A stretch of DNA of 64,000 nt from Dyadobacter sp. (GTDB lineage Bacteria > Bacteroidota > Bacteroidia > Cytophagales > Spirosomataceae), in NCBI RefSeq assembly GCF_017744695.1, contig NZ_JAGIAS010000004.1, positions 393,303 through 457,302 of the forward strand, written 5' to 3'. A program made the position numbers and the translations under genes. Shown here piece by piece: positions 2,249 to 11,104 of the stretch. Below the pieces are notes generated by a model that had not been told where the DNA came from, searched no databases, and saw nothing but the letters and a program-made list of their open reading frames with translations. How positions within the stretch are numbered: the first letter of the stretch is position 1; each line of letters begins with the position of its first letter.

Positions 2249-3097
2249 TCACCCCTGCCGTTTCGGCGTCGTCCCGTACTTCTCTTTATAAGTCTTGATA
2301 AAATGCGAAACGCTCTCGTAACCGATCTCGGTACTGATCTCCGACACGTTCTTCGTACTATTCCTCAACAGAAAATCGGCATAATCCAGCCGCTTGTTTT
2401 TCAGCCATAATGCAGGCGAAGTGTTGAATTCGTCCTGAAAGTCCCGTTTAAATGCGGAGAGGCTACGGCCGGAAAGGCGTGCAAGCTCATTTAGCGTCAG
2501 CGGTTTCAAATAGTAGCTGTTCATTAAAAACGAAAGATCTACCTTTTCACCTTTATACAGGCTGTACAAAATACCCCGCAGCTGGCTTGAATTATCCAGC
2601 TCCATTAAATGAAGCAGCAGTTCCTGGAATTTCAGTCTTAGAAAGTGGTTCTTCAACTCCGTCCGCGAGCGGAAATAAGGGAATACCGATTGGATGAACT
2701 TCTCGAAGTTATCATCCGACTTCAAGAGCAAAATCGGATATTCAACGCTTTCAGCATTTTTTTGCACATCGAAAAGCTCCGGGTGCAGACCCACGAATTC
2801 TTTTAAAAGCTTTTCATCAAAGAAGAAAACCAGACTTTTATAAGCCTCGTGGATGGACTCCGACATCAAGTAAAAACCCCTCTGAATGAACAGAATATCC
2901 CCTTTTTCGACATGCACTTCCTGGGTCGGACTGGTAAATTTCTTCTCACCTTCCAGCACTACAATCACCGCATGCTCCTCAAAAAACACATCGTATTTGG
3001 AAGGATACACCTCATTCCGATACGCCACGAAGGTCATGTCCTGAATTTTCAGGGACTCGAATTCCTGGGAGCTGATATCGGATGGTACGCGGAGCAT
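2249..3097 (-). CDS. AraC-family transcriptional regulator
   Basis: A 282-residue regulator. The N-terminal half is a cupin-like sensing domain (about residues 25-120; VVLEGEKKF, VEKGDILFIQRGFY). The C-terminal 100 residues carry the two AraC helix-turn-helix motifs: LTLNELARLSGRSLSAFKRDF and VSEISTEIGYESVSHFIKTY, ending in the typical KYGTTPKR. The ligand is unknown. The gene lies 14 bp downstream of the secreted beta-barrel-like gene on the same strand, so they are probably co-transcribed. It is not obviously tied to branched-chain amino acid synthesis. Confidence 0.93.
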   Translation of the reverse strand: MLRVPSDISSQEFESLKIQDMTFVAYRNEVYPSKYDVFFEEHAVIVVLEGEKKFTSPTQEVHVEKGDILFIQRGFYLMSESIHEAYKSLVFFFDEKLLKEFVGLHPELFDVQKNAESVEYPILLLKSDDNFEKFIQSVFPYFRSRTELKNHFLRLKFQELLLHLMELDNSSQLRGILYSLYKGEKVDLSFLMNSYYLKPLTLNELARLSGRSLSAFKRDFQDEFNTSPALWLKNKRLDYADFLLRNSTKNVSEISTEIGYESVSHFIKTYKEKYGTTPKRQG

Positions 3098-3111
3098 GGT
3101 TGGGCAGAAAG

Positions 3112-4278
3112 TTATTTCCGGCTTTTGAAAAGTTTGTTCAGATTGAGGTAGTAGTTCAAACTGATGCGCGGGCGATTGAAAAACGTAACCTCGTCTGAAA
3201 CCAACGATGAAAAATTTGCAAAATGGGAGACTTCGAAACTGAATTGCCTCCGAAAAGAAACTCCAACATGCGGCCCCAAAATGGACGTTCGCCAGCTATC
3301 CAAGGGAAAGCTGTATTCAAAACCAATGTTAGGTCGAAAATCACCAGAACCCATGTAAGTTCCTGCACCAAGCTCCAAGGTATTCAAACTGATTTTTTCG
3401 TCCGGGATGTAATTGTACACCTTGCTCACAGAGATACCGGGCATTGTCGCAAACAGTATCTTGAAATACCTGTTGTGAAATCTTCTCGGCAAATTCACAC
3501 GCAATCCAACCCCAAATGTAGGCGTTGCTCCTAAGTTGACATCGGTTTCCTCCCAGGCTTCAATACCGCCCATCACAAATGCATCTATCTCCATTTCCGA
3601 TTCGGCAGCAACGCCTTTGCTCTGCTTTCGCGAGGTATTCACCCCATTGTATCGGTCGACATAACGCCCCAACTCCTTCGCAGAATAGCCACGAACAGGG
3701 CCATTGTCGGCACCGTCGCCAAGCAATACAGGCAATTGGCGCACATACTCGTCGTATTGAATGAGGTACTTTTTCCCGCCAGTTAGTCTGTAAAAAGGAT
3801 AATTGAACAATTCCGTCAGCTTCCCGTCTTTTTCCAGAAAGAAATGCGACTGTTCAGTCGGATCCAGGTATTCCAATAGGGTTGCTTTGGGGCCTGAGGT
3901 TATCTCCCGTAAATAAACGGTTACCGAGTCCTTAGCCTCGAGAGACGGAGCCAACTCGTAGGTTTTGCTCAAATCGATGTTTAGTATCCCAATTCTTTTA
4001 CTGACATAATGCTCGCTGAGCGGCGCAAGGTAGAACTTAGCTGCTATGTCCGGGCCTACTTTTTCGATTCCACCATCCTTCTCCTTCGTGAAATCGATGG
4101 CCATCGGGCTCGTACCCCAGCCGTCGTAACGAATAAATCCCCTGACCGTGTCGCCTTGGGGTGACACAATATAGCTATTCAGCATCTTTCCCTGCCCAAA
4201 GCTGCGGGAAAAGGCCATCAAAATAACTAACGCACCGACAAGTACACAATGCGATTTTCGTCGTAAACCTGAGCTCAT
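3112..4278 (-). CDS. Secreted, possibly outer-membrane beta-barrel protein of unknown function
   Basis: A 388-residue protein that I cannot assign to a named family. It has a clear Sec signal peptide (basic n-region, hydrophobic VLVGALVILMAFS, cleavage near SFGQ). The middle part (about 30-200) is strand-rich with repeated K/D/G turns. The last 170 residues alternate glycines and aromatics (VGLRVNLP, ELGAGTYMGSGDFRPNIGFEY, PRISLNYYLNLN) in the manner of Bacteroidota outer-membrane beta-barrels. It lies 19 bp downstream of ilvA and 14 bp upstream of the AraC gene. Confidence 0.65.
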   Translation of the reverse strand: MSSGLRRKSHCVLVGALVILMAFSRSFGQGKMLNSYIVSPQGDTVRGFIRYDGWGTSPMAIDFTKEKDGGIEKVGPDIAAKFYLAPLSEHYVSKRIGILNIDLSKTYELAPSLEAKDSVTVYLREITSGPKATLLEYLDPTEQSHFFLEKDGKLTELFNYPFYRLTGGKKYLIQYDEYVRQLPVLLGDGADNGPVRGYSAKELGRYVDRYNGVNTSRKQSKGVAAESEMEIDAFVMGGIEAWEETDVNLGATPTFGVGLRVNLPRRFHNRYFKILFATMPGISVSKVYNYIPDEKISLNTLELGAGTYMGSGDFRPNIGFEYSFPLDSWRTSILGPHVGVSFRRQFSFEVSHFANFSSLVSDEVTFFNRPRISLNYYLNLNKLFKSRK

Positions 4279-4297: not shown

Positions 4298-5554
4298 TTA
4301 CACCATAAACTGAAACAAATCCGGCTGATCATTCAAATACTCGTAAACCACCCGGTTCGCATCCATTCGCTCGATCAGCGGGGCAAAGTCTTCCCGGCTT
4401 TTCAACTCAATACCGACCAATGCAGGTCCCTGCTCCCGGTTGGTTTTCTTGACGTATTCAAATCGAGCAATATCATCATTTGGTCCGAGGACATTCAAAA
4501 ACTCCCGGAATGCACCGGAGCGTTGCGGGAAGCGGATAATGAAATAATGCTTCAACCCTTCATAAAGCAACGATCGCTCCTTGATTTCCTCGGTGCGGGT
4601 AATGTCATTGTTACCGCCGCTGATCAGAACTACGACATTCTTTCCCTTAATATCTTCCTTAATCAAATCCAATGCAGCCACGGTCAATGCCCCGGCAGGT
4701 TCGGCGACGATCGCTTCTTCATTATAAAGTTGCAGGATCGACGAGCATACCTTTCCTTCCGGCACAAGCAGGATTTGATTCAAACTCTTGCTGCAAATAT
4801 CAAACGTAATGTCGCCTGCACGCTTCACTGCCGCTCCATCCACAAACTTGTCGATATTATCCAGCGTTACTACATGCCCCTCCTGAATGGATTTGTGCAT
4901 AGTTGGTGACCCTTCAGGCTCCACACCTATGAGCTGTGTTTTAGGGGAGAGTTGTTTGAAAACCGTGGAAATGCCCGACGCCAACCCGCCTCCGCCAATA
5001 GCCATCAGCAGGTAATCGATTTTGAAATCGGCGTCTTTAAAAATTTCCAGACCAACGGTCCCCTGGCCTTCAATCACCTGCAAATCATCGAATGGATGCA
5101 CAAAAACGGCATTGGTACTGTCGCGGTAGGCCATCGAAGCGTGGTACGCGTCGTCATAGGTATCACCTACCAAATGGATTTCAATCCATTCCTGACCAAA
5201 CAGTCTTACCTGCTTCACTTTCTGGGCCGGCGTGGTGGTAGGCATAAAAATCGCACCTTTCACCTCCATTTTCCGGCACGCGTATGCTACGCCTTGCGCG
5301 TGGTTGCCCGCGCTCGCACACACGACCCCGCCCGCGAGGGCTTCGGGCGTGAGGCTCGCCATTTTGTTGTAGGCACCGCGGATTTTGTAAGAGCGAACGG
5401 TTTGGAGGTCTTCTCTTTTGAGATAAATATTAGCCCCGTACTGCTCCGAAAGATGTGCATTAAAAAATATCGGTGTGTGGTTAATCACCCCGCGCAGGCG
5501 TTCGGCGGCGAGGAATATGTTATCGAGAGTCGGAACGGAATGTGAAGTGCTCAT
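4298..5554 (-). CDS. ilvA: Threonine ammonia-lyase (threonine dehydratase)
   Basis: Deaminates threonine to 2-oxobutanoate, the first committed step of isoleucine synthesis. The protein has 418 residues. The PLP lysine is Lys57 in VRSYKIRGAYNK, and the glycine-rich phosphate loop reads AIGGGGLASG. There is one C-terminal ACT-like regulatory segment (HYFIIRFPQRSGAFREFLNVL), the short form common in Bacteroidota and Gram-positives. The start at 5554 is preferred. An in-frame ATG at 5599 would add 15 residues, but their codons lie across an intrinsic-terminator hairpin (5571-5596). The gene is last of the ilv run and may be partly insulated from ilvC by that terminator. Confidence 0.96.
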   Translation of the reverse strand: MSTSHSVPTLDNIFLAAERLRGVINHTPIFFNAHLSEQYGANIYLKREDLQTVRSYKIRGAYNKMASLTPEALAGGVVCASAGNHAQGVAYACRKMEVKGAIFMPTTTPAQKVKQVRLFGQEWIEIHLVGDTYDDAYHASMAYRDSTNAVFVHPFDDLQVIEGQGTVGLEIFKDADFKIDYLLMAIGGGGLASGISTVFKQLSPKTQLIGVEPEGSPTMHKSIQEGHVVTLDNIDKFVDGAAVKRAGDITFDICSKSLNQILLVPEGKVCSSILQLYNEEAIVAEPAGALTVAALDLIKEDIKGKNVVVLISGGNNDITRTEEIKERSLLYEGLKHYFIIRFPQRSGAFREFLNVLGPNDDIARFEYVKKTNREQGPALVGIELKSREDFAPLIERMDANRVVYEYLNDQPDLFQFMV

Positions 5555-5570
5555 AAATGATTCTGAAACA

Positions 5571-5596
5571 AAAGAGCTTTGCAAAAAGCAAAGCTC
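5571..5596 (-). terminator. Intrinsic terminator between ilvC and ilvA
   Basis: On the minus strand a perfect 9-bp stem GAGCTTTGC / GCAAAGCTC with loop TTTTT is followed directly by TTTTG. It ends 17 bases before the ilvA start codon, about the same spacing as the ilvD attenuator to ilvD. It would end or reduce ilvDBNC transcription before ilvA. An upstream in-frame ATG at 5599 reads through it. Confidence 0.75.
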
Positions 5597-5607
5597 CATT
5601 TTCTATC

Positions 5608-5655: not shown

Positions 5656-6702
5656 TTAGTTTCTTTCTGGGCGAAGACCGCGAACAGTAGAACCTGCCTG
5701 CCACATTTCCGATTCGCGCAATTCAGCCAATTCAGCTTCCAGCTTCACGCGGTAGTCAGGCTGTGAGTTGCGGGTGATAGAGATTGTAGCTTGCTCGCCG
5801 CTCTTTACAGAGTTGTAAAGTTGCTCGAAAACAGGCTTGGTAGCGTCGCGGAAAGGTTTCCACCAGTCCAAAGCACCACGCTGTGCAGTAGTAGAGCAGT
5901 TAGCGTACATCCAGTCCATACCGTTTTCTGCAACCAATGGCATCAACGATTGAGTCAGCTCTTCAACAGTTTCGTTGAATGCTTCCGATGGTGTGTGGCC
6001 ATTTGAACGCAACACTTCGTATTGTGCAGCGAAAATACCCTGGATAGCACCCATCAAAGTACCACGCTCACCGGTAAGGTCGGAAGTTACTTCACGGTAG
6101 AAATCAGTTTCGAACAGGTAACCTGAACCTACACCGATACCCATTGCGATACATTTCTCACGCGCTTTGCCGGTAGCATCCTGGAATACCGCGAAAGAAG
6201 AGTTCAAGCCTTTTCCTTCTACGAACAGGCGGCGAAGTGAAGTTCCCGATCCTTTTGGAGCAACCAGGTACACATCCACGTCAGCAGGAGGAACGATGCC
6301 GGTCTGATCTTTATAAGTTACACCGAAACCGTGTGAGAAATACAGTGATTTTCCAGCAGTAAGGTGTTTTTTAACAGTTGGCCAAAGTTCGATCTGAGCT
6401 GCGTCAGAAAGCAAGTAGCAAATGATGGTTCCTTTTGCAAGCGCCTCTTCGATGTCGAAAAGGGTTTCGCCTGGTACCCATCCGTCAGCAACGGCTTTGT
6501 CCCAAGACTTACCACCTTTACGCTGACCAACGATTACATTGAAACCGTTGTCACGCATGTTCAAGCTTTGGCCTGGGCCTTGTACGCCGTAACCAATTAC
6601 AGCGATGGTTTCGTTAGAAAGTACTTCGCGTGCTTTTTCAAGAGGAAATTCTTCACGGGTTACTACTTCTTCTTCGACCCCGCCGAAATTTAATTTTGCC
6701 AT
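5656..6702 (-). CDS. ilvC: Ketol-acid reductoisomerase (NADP+)
   Basis: Converts 2-acetolactate and 2-aceto-2-hydroxybutanoate to the dihydroxy acids of valine and isoleucine synthesis, using NADPH and Mg2+. The 348-residue protein has an N-terminal Rossmann motif IGYGVQGPGQ (about residues 37-46), SHGFGVTY, and the C-terminal knotted domain with SDLTGERGTLMGAIQGIF and ANCSTTAQRGALDWW. These are the features of the Bacteroidota class with the GYGVQGPGQ signature. The gene follows ilvN by 64 bp on the same strand. Confidence 0.97.
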   Translation of the reverse strand: MAKLNFGGVEEEVVTREEFPLEKAREVLSNETIAVIGYGVQGPGQSLNMRDNGFNVIVGQRKGGKSWDKAVADGWVPGETLFDIEEALAKGTIICYLLSDAAQIELWPTVKKHLTAGKSLYFSHGFGVTYKDQTGIVPPADVDVYLVAPKGSGTSLRRLFVEGKGLNSSFAVFQDATGKAREKCIAMGIGVGSGYLFETDFYREVTSDLTGERGTLMGAIQGIFAAQYEVLRSNGHTPSEAFNETVEELTQSLMPLVAENGMDWMYANCSTTAQRGALDWWKPFRDATKPVFEQLYNSVKSGEQATISITRNSQPDYRVKLEAELAELRESEMWQAGSTVRGLRPERN

Positions 6703-6766: not shown

Positions 6767-7300
6767 CTATTGGTAATACTCCCACTCAGCTTCGGGCAGA
6801 TAATCTACCAGTGTCTGAGGCGATTTGCTCACCGCCACCCGCCCCGAGCGAACGAATTCGAGGATCTCGTGGGGTTTGATATAGTCGAAAAATTCAAAGA
6901 TCTCTTCTTCGGTACCGGTCTTCTGGATGATCACATAAGTGAGGTGCCAGTACACGACCCAGGCCTTGTAAGTCTTGTTGATCGTCTCGATATCGAGCGG
7001 CTTGGCGCCGATCGGCGTCGAAACCTTGAACAATGCGATCTCGTTGTACGCGATGTCCTCATTGAGGTACCCGAAAACCGCGAGTACTTCAATAATCTTG
7101 CGGATCTGGCGGACCAGTTTCTCTACTGCGTCGCGCGACTCATGGCGGATGACGATCGTAAACCGGGAAATACCCTTACGCTCGGTTTCCGAAACGGTTA
7201 AGCTGTCGATATTGATCCGTCGCCGGGTGAATATCGTTGTGATCTTGTTGAGAATACCGATTGTATTTTCGGTAAAAACACAAATGGTGTATGATGTCAT
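6767..7300 (-). CDS. ilvN: Acetolactate synthase small (regulatory) subunit
   Basis: A 177-residue regulatory subunit of acetohydroxyacid synthase. The N-terminal ACT domain reads YTICVFTENTIGILNKITTIFTRRRINIDSLTVS, split here as TENTIGILNKI and INIDSLTVS. The C-terminal half is the IlvN/IlvH-specific domain. It confers valine feedback control on the IlvB catalytic subunit, encoded 19 bp upstream. The order ilvB-ilvN-ilvC is the usual operon order. Confidence 0.95.
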   Translation of the reverse strand: MTSYTICVFTENTIGILNKITTIFTRRRINIDSLTVSETERKGISRFTIVIRHESRDAVEKLVRQIRKIIEVLAVFGYLNEDIAYNEIALFKVSTPIGAKPLDIETINKTYKAWVVYWHLTYVIIQKTGTEEEIFEFFDYIKPHEILEFVRSGRVAVSKSPQTLVDYLPEAEWEYYQ

Positions 7301-7319: not shown

Positions 7320-9080
7320 TTATTCCAAACGGATATCTGCTACACAGGCACCCGTTGGCACCATCGGGAACACGTTTTCCTCTTTCTCAACCAATACTTC
7401 GAGCAGGTAAGGCTTGTCGGAAGCCAGCATGGTGTCCAGCGACGCGTGCAAATCCTCGCGTTTCGCGCAGGTATGGCCATCGATACCGAAACCTTTTGCG
7501 ATCGTAATGAAATCCGGGTTTTGCAACTCCACGAACGAATAGCGTTTCTGGTGGAAAAGCTGTTGCCACTGGCGTACCATTCCGAGGAAGTTGTTGTTCA
7601 GAATGATAATCTTCACCGGCAGGCCGCTTTGTGCAATCGTACCCAGCTCCTGAATGGTCATCTGGAAACAACCGTCACCGATAATCGCAACTACTTCACG
7701 GTCGGGCGCACCCACTTTCGCTCCGAATGATGCCGGCAATGCGTAACCCATTGTTCCCAAACCGCCCGAAGTAATGTACGAGCTCGGTTTTTTGAACTGG
7801 TAGTAGCGTGCCGCCATCATCTGGTGCTGGCCTACATCTGCTACGATCACCGCTTCACCTTTGGTTTTATCAGAAAGCGTGCGGATTACTTCCGCCATTT
7901 TGATTTTCTCCGTGGTAGGAGCCAATTCCGGCTGCGTGATTTTCTGGTCTTCAATGGCGTCGTACTTCTTGAATTCTGCTTTCCAAGCTTCGTGATTATT
8001 CTCGTTCACCAATGGAAGCAACAATTCCAACGCAATTTTAGCATCACCCACTACGGGTGCATCCGCCTTCATGATCTTGTCGATCTCCGCCGGGTCGATT
8101 TCAATGTGTACCACTTTGGCCTGTTTCGCATAGCGGCTCAAATCACCGGTAACGCGGTCATCGAAACGCATTCCGACAGCGATAATGAGGTCGCATTGGT
8201 TGGTCAGGACGTTGGTACCGTAGTTTCCGTGCATTCCCAGCCAGCCTACATAGTTGGGATGGTCAACCGACATGGAGGAAAGCCCCAGCAAAGTCGATGC
8301 AACAGGAATATCCGTTTTTTCAACGAAGCGGATCAATTCTTGTTCCGCACCGGCAATCTGCACGCCGTGACCTACAAACAGGAATGGGCGTTTCGCCTGG
8401 TTGATCAGCTTCGCAGCTGCCGCCAGTTGCTCTTCTTTAGGAGCCATGCGCGGGTGATAACTCAGCAATGTTTCCACCTTTTTGTGTACAAAAGGCTTAG
8501 TCATCAGCTTCTGCTGTGCATCCTTGGTAATATCAATCAAAACCGGCCCCGGACGGCCTGATTTTGCTATATAAAATGCCTTGGCAATGATTTCAGGGAT
8601 CTCATCCGCATTGGTGACCTGATAATTCCATTTGGTAATGGGAATCGTGATACCCATTACATCCGTCTCCTGGAATGCGTCGGTACCGAGCAAGTGCGAA
8701 GCGACCTGGCCGATAATGCAGACCATCGGCGTCGAGTCGATGATCGCGTCGGCGATACCTGTCACGAGGTTGGTAGCACCCGGGCCCGACGTTACCAGAC
8801 AAACCCCTACCTCACCTGTAATGCGTGCAAAGCCTTCCGCCGCGTGAGCAGCGCCTTGCTCGTGGCGCACGAGAATGTGGTTGACCTGATCCTGATAGTC
8901 ATAGATCGCATCGTACACCGGCATAATCGCGCCGCCCGGATAGCCGAAAATGGTTTTCACCCCTTCCGCAATCAGCGACTGGATCACCGCATGCGAGCCA
9001 TTGATCAGCTCCGGCTTGGCCACCGAAACCACCGGTTCCGAGCCCTGAATTGTTGCAGTTTGATTTTCATTAAATCCCAT
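7320..9080 (-). CDS. ilvB: Acetolactate synthase large (catalytic) subunit
   Basis: A thiamine diphosphate enzyme condensing pyruvate with pyruvate or 2-oxobutanoate. It has 586 residues, the usual length. The catalytic glutamate lies in VRHEQGAAHAAEGFAR. The central FAD-type domain is present. The ThDP/Mg2+ motif begins GDGCFQMTIQELGT and ends about 30 residues later in ILNNNFLGM. The gene lies 40 bp downstream of ilvD and 19 bp upstream of ilvN in the same transcription unit, so it should be under the attenuator upstream of ilvD. Confidence 0.97.
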   Translation of the reverse strand: MGFNENQTATIQGSEPVVSVAKPELINGSHAVIQSLIAEGVKTIFGYPGGAIMPVYDAIYDYQDQVNHILVRHEQGAAHAAEGFARITGEVGVCLVTSGPGATNLVTGIADAIIDSTPMVCIIGQVASHLLGTDAFQETDVMGITIPITKWNYQVTNADEIPEIIAKAFYIAKSGRPGPVLIDITKDAQQKLMTKPFVHKKVETLLSYHPRMAPKEEQLAAAAKLINQAKRPFLFVGHGVQIAGAEQELIRFVEKTDIPVASTLLGLSSMSVDHPNYVGWLGMHGNYGTNVLTNQCDLIIAVGMRFDDRVTGDLSRYAKQAKVVHIEIDPAEIDKIMKADAPVVGDAKIALELLLPLVNENNHEAWKAEFKKYDAIEDQKITQPELAPTTEKIKMAEVIRTLSDKTKGEAVIVADVGQHQMMAARYYQFKKPSSYITSGGLGTMGYALPASFGAKVGAPDREVVAIIGDGCFQMTIQELGTIAQSGLPVKIIILNNNFLGMVRQWQQLFHQKRYSFVELQNPDFITIAKGFGIDGHTCAKREDLHASLDTMLASDKPYLLEVLVEKEENVFPMVPTGACVADIRLE

Positions 9081-9120: not shown

Positions 9121-10806
9121 TTACGCTTCGTCAGTCACGCAACCTTCGCTGGCTGATTTCACGGTTCTGATATATCTTCCCAGCATCCCTTTCGTAAAGC
9201 GTGGCGCGGGTTGTACCCAGGCTGCTTTGCGGGATGCCATTTCTTGGTCGGAAATGTGCAGGGTCAGTACGCGGGTATTGGCGTCAATAGAAATTCGGTC
9301 GCCGTCTTTAACCAATGCGATTGGGCCGCCGTCAAATGCTTCCGGGGTAATGTGGCCCACTACGAAACCGTGTGTGCCGCCTGAGAAACGACCGTCGGTG
9401 ATCAATGCGATCTTGTCGCCCAATCCTGCACCCATTACCGCAGAAGTAGGTTTCAGCATTTCCGACATACCCGGACCGCCTTTCGGGCCTGCATTACGGA
9501 TTACCACCACGTGGCCGGCTTTAATTTCACCTTTGGCAAGCATTTCGATGATCTCCGATTCGTGCTCGCACACTTTCGCTTCGCCGTCGAATGTCAGACC
9601 TTCCTTACCGGTAATTTTCGCAACCGCTCCTTCTGGCGCCAGGTTACCGTAAAGTACCTGAATGTGACCTGTCTGCTTAATCGGCGTTTCGATTGGGAAC
9701 ACCATTTTCTGGGTTTCAAAATTCAAGTCAGGTGCTTCGGCGAGGTTTTCGGCGACAGTTTTACCCGTAACTGTCATGCAATCTCCGTGAATGAGTCCTA
9801 CGGAATACAAATACTTGGTAACAGCGGGAACACCCCCGATTTCCAGAATATCTTCCATAAAGTATTTACCGCTAGGTTTCAAATCCGCGATAAACGGCGT
9901 GCGGTCTGAAATCGCCTGAATGTCATCCAGAGTCAAAGGAATACCCGCTGCGCGAGCGATTGCGAGGTAATGCAATGCCGCGTTGGTAGAGCCGCCGAGC
10001 GCCATTACCACTGTCAATGCGTTTTCCAGTGATTTTTTAGTAATAATATCTTTCGGAGTAATGTTCAGTTCGAGCAATTTCTTCATAGCCGCACCGATCT
10101 TCTTGCATTCCTCCTGCTTGCCTTCGTGGGTAGCCGGGTAAGAGCTGCTGAATGGCAAGCTCAATCCCATTGCCTCGATCGAAGAAGCCATCGTATTGGC
10201 CGTGTACATCCCGCCGCAAGCGCCCTGGCCAGGGATCGAATTCTGGATTACTCCTTTATAATCTTCGTCAGAAATATTGTTGGCAAACTTCTTGCCTAAT
10301 GCTTCGAATGCCGAAACAATGTCCAGCTTCTGTCCTTTATAATGTCCGGAACGGATCGTTCCGCCGTACACCATAATGGCAGGACGATCCAAGCGGGCCA
10401 TCGCCATAATAGCGCCAGGCATGTTTTTATCACAACCTACGACCGCGATCACACCATCATACCATTGTGCAGCCACCACGGTTTCGATCGAATCCGCGAT
10501 AATGTCGCGGCTCGGCAGCGAGTAACGCATACCGTCGTTTCCGTTGGTCATACCATCCGAAACACCGATAGTGTTGAAGATCAGGCCGACCATATCATTC
10601 GCATTCACCCCTTGTTTCACATACACCGACAAACCGTTCAGGTGCATGTTGCACGGATTACCTTCGTAACCAGTGCTGGCAATCCCGATCTGGGGTTTAA
10701 CAAAGTCTTCTTCTTTCAAACCAATTCCATAAAGCATCGCCTGCGCGGCCGGATTGGTTACTTCCTGGGTTAGGGTCTTCGAAAATCTGTTTAATTCTGT
10801 CGCCAT
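9121..10806 (-). CDS. ilvD: Dihydroxy-acid dehydratase
   Basis: Dehydrates dihydroxyisovalerate and dihydroxymethylvalerate to the 2-oxo acids. It is an Fe-S enzyme of the IlvD/Edd family. The length is 561 residues from [10 protein letters not shown]. Cluster cysteines are visible in [13 protein letters not shown] and [17 protein letters not shown], and the C-terminal half carries [15 protein letters not shown]. The in-frame upstream ATG at 10842 is rejected because it lies inside the attenuator hairpin. This is the first structural gene of the ilv unit, 18 bases after the terminator T-tract. Confidence 0.97.
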
Positions 10807-10823
10807 TGGTGAATGATTGTATT

Positions 10824-10862
10824 TAAAATAAAAACACCCCACTCGGTTGGGTGAGTGAGGTG
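10824..10862 (-). terminator. ilv attenuator terminator
   Basis: On the minus strand CACCTCACTC (10862-10853) pairs with GAGTGGGGTG (10844-10835) through ten pairs, one of them G-U. The loop has 8 nt and the stem is followed by TTTTTATTTT, a canonical intrinsic terminator placed before ilvD. Its 5' arm is shared with an antiterminator: CTCACTCAC (10859-10851) can pair with GTGAGTGGG (10889-10881), nine pairs with one G-U, and the two structures exclude each other. Confidence 0.9.
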
Positions 10863-10885
10863 CCAGTTATGTGCTATCATCCCAC

Positions 10886-10939
10886 TCACGCTTGCGGCGT
10901 GACGATAATTAGGACCGGGACGATAAGAGTCAATTTCAT
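10886..10939 (-). CDS. ilv leader peptide, too short for ordinary ORF calling
   Basis: A 17-residue open frame, MKLTLIVPVLIIVTPQA, with ATG at 10939-10937 and TGA at 10888-10886. Nine of the 17 residues are Leu, Ile or Val, the three products of the downstream pathway, and seven of these are packed into 9 consecutive codons (LIVPVLIIV). The stop codon lies inside the 5' arm of the antiterminator (10881-10889), so a ribosome finishing the peptide would mask that arm. This is the arrangement known from enterobacterial ilv and leu operons. No Shine-Dalgarno is seen, which is normal for this phylum. Confidence 0.88.
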   Translation of the reverse strand: MKLTLIVPVLIIVTPQA

Positions 10940-10993
10940 TTTTAGCGTAACCTTTGAGTCTAGCGAAATTTCGCTGCTTTTGACTTGGTGTTA

Positions 10994-11025
10994 CAAATTA
11001 GCGGCCTATCTTTTTATTTTCCAAA
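10994..11025 (-). promoter_or_regulatory. Promoter of the ilv operon
   Basis: On the minus strand TTTG (11025-11022) lies 21 bases before TAATTTG (11000-10994). This is close to the Bacteroidota sigma consensus TTTG-N19..21-TAnnTTTG, although the -7 element lacks one T. Transcription would start near 10988 and give a leader of about 180 nt before ilvD. A perfect 14-bp palindrome AGCGAAATTTCGCT (10962-10975) lies in the leader between the start and the leader peptide. Confidence 0.6.
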
Positions 11026-11104
11026 CATTCAGAGCTTTTTTTGTTGTTAATCTACGATAAATACCAAATTTCTTCCCGGTATAAGATCCTTATCGGAAAA
11101 CATT

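Follow-up and report, generated by a model that had tools for sequence, protein, structure and literature searches.

The window, a 64,000-nt stretch of Dyadobacter sp. DNA, carries on its minus strand a cluster of genes for the synthesis of branched-chain amino acids (BCAA). The first gene of the cluster is ilvD, coding for dihydroxy-acid dehydratase (9121–10806; TIGR00110, 712.5 bits with a cut-off of 618.15), and its product is 99% identical to the IlvD of D. jiangsuensis. It is followed by ilvB and ilvN for the large and small subunits of acetolactate synthase (7320–9080, TIGR00118, and 6767–7300, TIGR00119), ilvC for ketol-acid reductoisomerase (5656–6702, TIGR00465), ilvA for threonine ammonia-lyase (4298–5599, NF006390) and leuC for the large subunit of 3-isopropylmalate dehydratase (102–1592, TIGR00170), all on the same strand. 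Beyond the window the series continues after leuC with leuD, a LeuA-like protein, leuB and leuA, identified by eye from the translations of locus L172. Altogether the cluster covers the synthesis of Leu, Ile and Val (by family searches, and by eye for the genes outside the window). Two LeuA-like proteins are encoded in it (L172, 6166–7320 and 8682–10244), one of which, judged by eye, may be a citramalate synthase or another related synthase. The gap between ilvA and leuC (window 2249–4278 and 1686–1991) holds, also by eye, an AraC-type gene, a gene of unassigned function and a short ParE-like ORF on the same strand, and because these three ORFs interrupt the series, its transcription as a single messenger is only inferred.

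The region in front of ilvD (11025 to 10806, minus strand) contains, in this order, a promoter, a palindrome, a short leader ORF, three RNA strands numbered 2, 3 and 4, a T-run and finally the start codon (ATG) of ilvD. The promoter, with coordinates obtained by script, is formed by a -33 element TTTG (11022–11025) and a -7 element TAATTTG (10994–11000) separated by 21 nt, a combination of the Bacteroidota type. Ahead of ilvD, the pattern TTTG-N20-22-TAnTTTG recurred in 47 of 48 Dyadobacter genomes. An ungapped comparison of 77 distinct sequences anchored on the palindrome showed T at -25 and at -21 in 99% of them. The 14-bp palindrome AGCGAAATTTCGCT (10962–10975, assigned to neither strand) was read from the sequence and is a candidate operator. 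The leader ORF, MKLTLIVPVLIIVTPQA, runs from ATG to TGA (10939–10886, read directly and by script) and has 17 codons, nine of them for Leu, Ile or Val (L/I/V). Its stop codon (10888–10886) lies within GTGAGTGGG (10889–10881). An intrinsic terminator sits between this ORF and ilvD. A GTG at 10842 was considered as an alternative start of ilvD and rejected because it falls inside the terminator, the ATG at 10806 being preferred.

The end of the leader ORF and the terminator are connected by a set of overlapping helices. Strand 1 (TCACGC, 10897–10902) is the 5' arm of a protector hairpin and pairs with 10891–10886. Strand 2 (GCGTGAGTGGG, 10881–10891), which contains the stop codon, is both the 3' arm of the protector and the 5' strand of an antiterminator, strand 3 (CACCTCACTCAC, 10851–10862) is common to the antiterminator and the terminator, and strand 4 (GAGTGGGGTG, 10835–10844) is the 3' arm of the terminator. 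The protector, TCACGC-CGCAA-GCGTGA, is made of the last leader codons plus the stop codon, and the GTGA in its 3' arm is also part of the antiterminator strand. The antiterminator pairs GTGAGTGGG with CTCACTCAC (10859–10851) in 9 bp including one G-U, and the terminator pairs CACCTCACTC (10862–10853) with strand 4 in 10 bp, also including one G-U, followed by the U-tract TTTTTATTTT (10825–10834, read directly and by script). Helices 1:2, 2:3 and 3:4 compete with one another, and four strands competing in this way are the layout of classical attenuators. An earlier note on this stretch had called the element a complete attenuator of the ilv operon. The parts that it named, i.e. the promoter, the frame with nine Leu/Ile/Val codons, the embedded stop codon, the two mutually exclusive pairings of the segment near 10851–10862 and the 10-bp terminator before ilvD, were all recovered at the coordinates that it gave and are kept in relatives (see below), and its claim of completeness has to be amended, the protector hairpin having been overlooked.

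We have compared the ilvD upstream regions of 170 loci, coming from 90 of 102 matching genomes (30 + 60 loci) and from 80 of 584 further matches. One locus without the motif (L057) was left out, and the 169 usable loci, two of which (L044 and L134) hold only 19 nt, comprised 151 distinct sequences. Strands 2 and 3 were found before ilvD in 46 of the 48 Dyadobacter genomes, G008 and G013 being without them. For the alignment, CCTC[AG]CTC was searched at 170 nt or less from ilvD, a filter that itself selects for strand 3. This gave 55 sequences, from which L048 and L049 were removed because their match lies in coding sequence. The remaining 53 rows include seven loci from Spirosomaceae other than Dyadobacter. 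In this alignment the protector was paired in 92.1% of 318 cells, versus 19–65% when the same structure was slid by 1–3 columns, the antiterminator in 97.5% of 477 cells (36–52% slid) and the terminator in 97.0% of 530 cells (34–57% slid). Changes on both sides of a pair were found in 8 cells of the protector and in 8 cells of the terminator, where column pair 92/120 was A-U in 45 of the 53 rows and G-C in the other 8, and in none of the antiterminator.

Each helix was also compared with 500 shuffles, a procedure that takes no account of the kinship among rows. The protector was reached by 0 shuffles in cells paired, 0 in both-side cells and 2 in covariation score, and the terminator by 0 in all three. 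By the number of pairs with a both-side change (145 shuffles reaching the protector and 389 the terminator) and by the number of pair types (167 and 500) neither helix stood above the shuffles. The antiterminator led clearly on no measure, with 40 shuffles reaching its cells paired and 500 reaching the others. Inside the 53-row family this helix is thus conserved without covariation, since none of its pairs changed on both sides and its values did not exceed those of the shuffles. RNAalifold, run on the complete alignment, predicted 11 pairs, of which eight belong to the terminator and three connect strands 1 and 2 in a shifted register. A longer pairing present in the lowest-energy fold of the window, TTATCGTCCC:GGGATGATAG, was paired in 74.8% of cells of the 53 rows (30–57% slid) and is not general; it may strengthen the protector in some species.

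A covariance model trained on the 53 rows matched 46 of the 48 Dyadobacter genomes exactly once each, at ilvD, a recovery that is circular because the same rows trained the model. Neither G052 nor G057 was in the training set, and the model found ilvD in both (E values of 3e-4 and 3.5e-3); their leaders read MNSYKAINIILVIILLCQTV and MLNNTSIVNLVLLLIPNRV. Further matches in G110, G106, G072 and G048 (at 604757), and a second one in G050, were not located before ilvD, had no such leader and were discarded as chance.

All 53 selected rows have an ORF ending at the hairpin, as the search required a stop there, with ATG as the start in 52 and GTG in one. The stop is a TGA within strand 2 in 33 rows, and TAA or TAG in or beside the hairpin loop in the other 20. 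On average L/I/V make up 50% of the leader in these selected relatives, and L/I/V-poor leaders also exist, e.g. L112 with 4 of 17. The position of the codon grid relative to the hairpin was that of the window in 36 of the 53 rows, the remaining 17 being rounded to the nearest codon. Along this grid the share of L/I/V was 0.66, 0.74, 0.89 and 0.36 at codons -8 to -5, codon -5 being mostly Pro, and 0.79, 0.89, 0.85, 0.87 and 0.87 at codons -4 to 0, the last value being partly forced because GTC-ACG holds the hairpin arm. Inside the hairpin it was 0.04 at +1 and then 0.06, i.e. a fall from 87% to 4% across the boundary. Codon -3 was Leu in 45 of 53 rows and CTA in 30. CTA represented 36.1% of the 169 Leu codons of the leaders, counts that are not independent because the rows share ancestry. 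Its share was 3.1% when 36 long ORFs of the window, none overlapping another, were treated as genes, and 3.0% in 30 ilvD genes with 1235 Leu codons. The leu leader of E. coli uses the rare Leu codon CUA, a feature that the Dyadobacter leader shares with it.

In the models, where the ribosome footprint was set at 16 nt counted from the P site, stalling at the control codons covers strand 1, and a ribosome at the stop codon covers strand 2. An alternative is a leader that senses its own peptide, with the nascent chain stalling the ribosome like an arrest peptide in place of uncharged tRNA, and the partial conservation of V-T at the hairpin (Val in 46 of 53 rows, then Thr in 46 of 53) could be read in that way. 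We regard this as highly improbable, since the GTC-ACG behind this conservation is also kept as RNA in the hairpin arm, the peptide otherwise varies freely among L, I and V, and the bias towards the rare codon CTA points to tRNA supply rather than to the nascent peptide.

The whole leader folded better than chance (z = -4.07, with 0 of 200 shuffles as good), and the leader without strand 4 and the U-tract was no better than its shuffles (z = -0.86, 40 of 200 as good). With a ribosome modelled as stalled at codon -3, strand 2 was free, and in every one of the 53 rows the antiterminator came out as the best fold as long as strand 4 was missing. With a ribosome at the stop codon the terminator formed in all 53, and the same was true for the untranslated full RNA, so that termination is the predicted default without translation. 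In untranslated RNA folded up to strand 3, the protector appeared in 28 of the 53 rows, and in 13 when the ribosome stalled early. Once strand 4 was present, equilibrium favoured the antiterminator in the stalled RNA of only 10 of the 53 rows, the RNA of the window not being among them, and therefore the starved state must be held kinetically. The earlier note had proposed that starvation frees the antiterminator and that full translation allows termination. Both folds came out as claimed in the models, with the restriction that the first of them must be kinetic.

Taken together, the comparison of sequences and the modelled folds make it very probable that the ilv-leu leader is a ribosome-mediated transcription attenuator sensing branched-chain aminoacyl-tRNA. 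RNA polymerase would start near 10988–10985 with a ribosome translating the leader behind it, both the start and this coupling being presumed. A shortage of Leu-, Ile- or Val-tRNA would stall the ribosome in codons 9–13 (V-L-I-I-V, including the rare CTA), where it would cover strand 1, the free strand 2 would pair with strand 3 in the antiterminator, and the polymerase would continue into ilvD. With charged tRNAs the ribosome would reach the stop codon and mask strand 2, strands 3 and 4 would pair, and transcription would end near 10825. If the leader is not translated, strand 1 or an upstream stretch would sequester strand 2, and here too the terminator would form.

A riboswitch or a T-box, sensing the amino acid or the tRNA directly, might also account for a structured leader that ends in a terminator ahead of genes for amino-acid synthesis. 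We consider this extremely unlikely here. No T-box, riboswitch or known Rfam leader matched at gathering scores anywhere in the window, a search of 10700–11100 at E values up to 10 gave only two weak and irrelevant Rfam matches, and the ORF occupies about half of the leader RNA, counted from its ATG to the U-tract.

The same organization was searched for in other lineages with a joint signature of six L/I/V in eight codons followed by a terminator. It was carried by 29 of the 48 distinct upstream sequences from Dyadobacter and by 16 of 101 others, and was absent from 149 reverse complements and 745 dinucleotide shuffles (0 in each). Nine of these 16 loci are outside Spirosomaceae: two Saprospiraceae, two Sinomicrobium, Saonia, one Chitinophagaceae, one Sphingobacteriales, one Bacteroidia MAG and one Ignavibacteriae MAG. 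In many of these loci strands 2, 3 and 4 differ in sequence together and the competition is kept, for example as GTTGATACAG:CTGTATCAAC in Sinomicrobium L107. The upstream antiterminator helix was better than shuffles (p < 0.05) in 12 of 18 loci and no better (p > 0.1) in the other six (L151, L152, L101, L090, L088 and L141). The pooled p of 2e-11 for the 18 loci is optimistic because loci and terminator arms were hand-picked and some loci are related. The stop codon was fully within strand 2 in 10 of 15 placeable leaders, partly in L090 and outside in L042, L106, L084 and L101.

The leader and the terminator were missing in two Dyadobacter loci, L013 (from G008) and L123 (from G013), where a promoter-like element and the palindrome stay close before ilvD. 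The upstream sequences of L036 and L055 are identical to those of L013 and L123, and the promoter of L013 deviates from the TTTG/TAnTTTG pattern. Similarly, eight Spirosoma loci examined (L045–L049, L052, L066 and L067) lacked leader and terminator and had a promoter-like element and the palindrome directly before ilvD. These Spirosoma loci, together with L013 and L123, are natural comparison strains. The alignment of relatives suggested in the earlier note thus found the LIV codons and both pairings kept, the antiterminator being without covariation inside the 53 rows and the eight Spirosoma loci without the leader.

The palindrome itself was found 5' of ilvD in all 48 Dyadobacter genomes. 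Its distance to the -7 element was constant in the 77 distinct sequences, including those of Spirosoma, when a relaxed pattern was used, and it lies probably just downstream of the transcription start. The sequence AGCGAAWWTTCGCT occurred once in the 7.8-Mb genome G000, and among the 48 Dyadobacter genomes it was found once in 43 and twice in five, as compared with a match to the reversed pattern in four of the 48. A half-site-like TTACGCT is located 3' of the palindrome in Dyadobacter (window 10944–10950), and a similar TTACGC is found 5' of it in Spirosoma relatives (loci such as L050 and L051), which suggests extra contacts by the protein that would bind the palindrome.

The fixed distance of the palindrome from the promoter, and its persistence where the leader is missing, could mean that a DNA-binding protein at this site is what controls the cluster, with a terminator that is constitutive or protein-controlled and an L/I/V-rich ORF that is incidental. 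This is quite unlikely as the whole explanation, given that the L/I/V codons, the CTA bias and the position of the stop are kept in register with the hairpin and that the joint signature never appeared on the 149 reverse strands. Protein control may well exist in addition to the attenuator.

Twelve further regions from relatives, with 14 sites of the palindrome, were picked among the matches listed. In these it was located before leuA in three (L173, L174 and L184), before the gene for malate synthase in five (L175, L176, L177, L180 and L182), before that for PEP carboxykinase in two and inside coding sequence in two. In four of the 12 it adjoined the gene of an XRE/IrrE regulator. Family searches covered one malate synthase, both PEP carboxykinases and the four regulators, the other neighbours being assigned by eye. 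All four regulators have HTH_3 and Peptidase_M78/IrrE domains, an architecture that we liken to that of RamB; the two proteins scanned reached 34.4 and 46.7 bits with the RamB model (NF038139), a weak similarity far below its cut-off of 700 bits. G000 encodes a homologue of the regulator with 53% identity, near which there was no palindrome with fewer than three mismatches. The XRE/IrrE regulator, distantly RamB-like, may bind the palindrome as its operator and link BCAA synthesis with acetyl-CoA metabolism. In the open-licence literature, a search for RamB and Bacteroidetes gave no such regulator among the best 10 of 53 matches.

The enterobacterial ilv, leu and trp attenuators have in common with the Dyadobacter element a leader with control codons, strands 1-2-3-4 and a terminator before a biosynthetic operon. 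The Dyadobacter leader differs from them in matching no Rfam leader family and in having a compact 6-bp protector that ends at the stop codon, and the window differs in its stop codon inside the antiterminator strand and its Bacteroidota promoter. Such attenuators were reportedly predicted also in Bacteroidetes/Chlorobi in a comparative study by Vitreschak and colleagues in 2004. In Flavobacterium psychrophilum, strong indications of attenuation by leader peptides have been reported upstream of amino-acid operons (PMC9723704). These elements resemble ours in phylum, in the mechanism proposed and in being new 5' elements without Rfam hits; those conserved beyond the species include pheA and hisG, and the main text of that paper has no word beginning with 'ilv'. 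In B. thetaiotaomicron, sORFs reminiscent of attenuating leader peptides have been mentioned (PMC7366714), and a table of RNAs from Bacteroidetes that are likely to regulate in cis includes the Bacteroid-trp motif RF01692 (PMC2864571). Unlike the Dyadobacter ilv leader, this motif by its name concerns trp, and the window contained no match to it. By its title, a paper on S. aureus describes layers of control over BCAA synthesis, with the protein CodY and a leucine-rich attenuator peptide (PMC5794164), in this case in another phylum and with another regulator. The open-licence literature searched contained no description of this ilv element and none of attenuators in Dyadobacter. The kind is already known, and its ilv member in Dyadobacter, with the details given here, appears to be undescribed in that literature.

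As a tentative extension, which we hold to be possible rather than probable, BCAA synthesis in Spirosomaceae might be under two layers of control. One would be an ilv attenuator class spread throughout Bacteroidota, usually with the stop codon in the antiterminator strand, and the other the distantly RamB-like XRE/IrrE regulator acting at the palindrome downstream of the transcription start and tying BCAA to the glyoxylate shunt and gluconeogenesis. In this view the attenuator would be a removable cassette, with two Dyadobacter genomes and Spirosoma keeping the operator only.

The leader peptide is below the length of routine gene calling and no Rfam family matches the element. What the locus offers is a well-resolved putative ilv-leu attenuator, with natural variants and absences, for a phylum where the papers cited here mention such control without dissecting it. 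Since ribosome-mediated attenuation needs a ribosome close behind the polymerase, the locus would make transcription-translation coupling in Bacteroidota directly testable, and working attenuators, if true, would imply that ribosomes follow closely behind the polymerase in this phylum.
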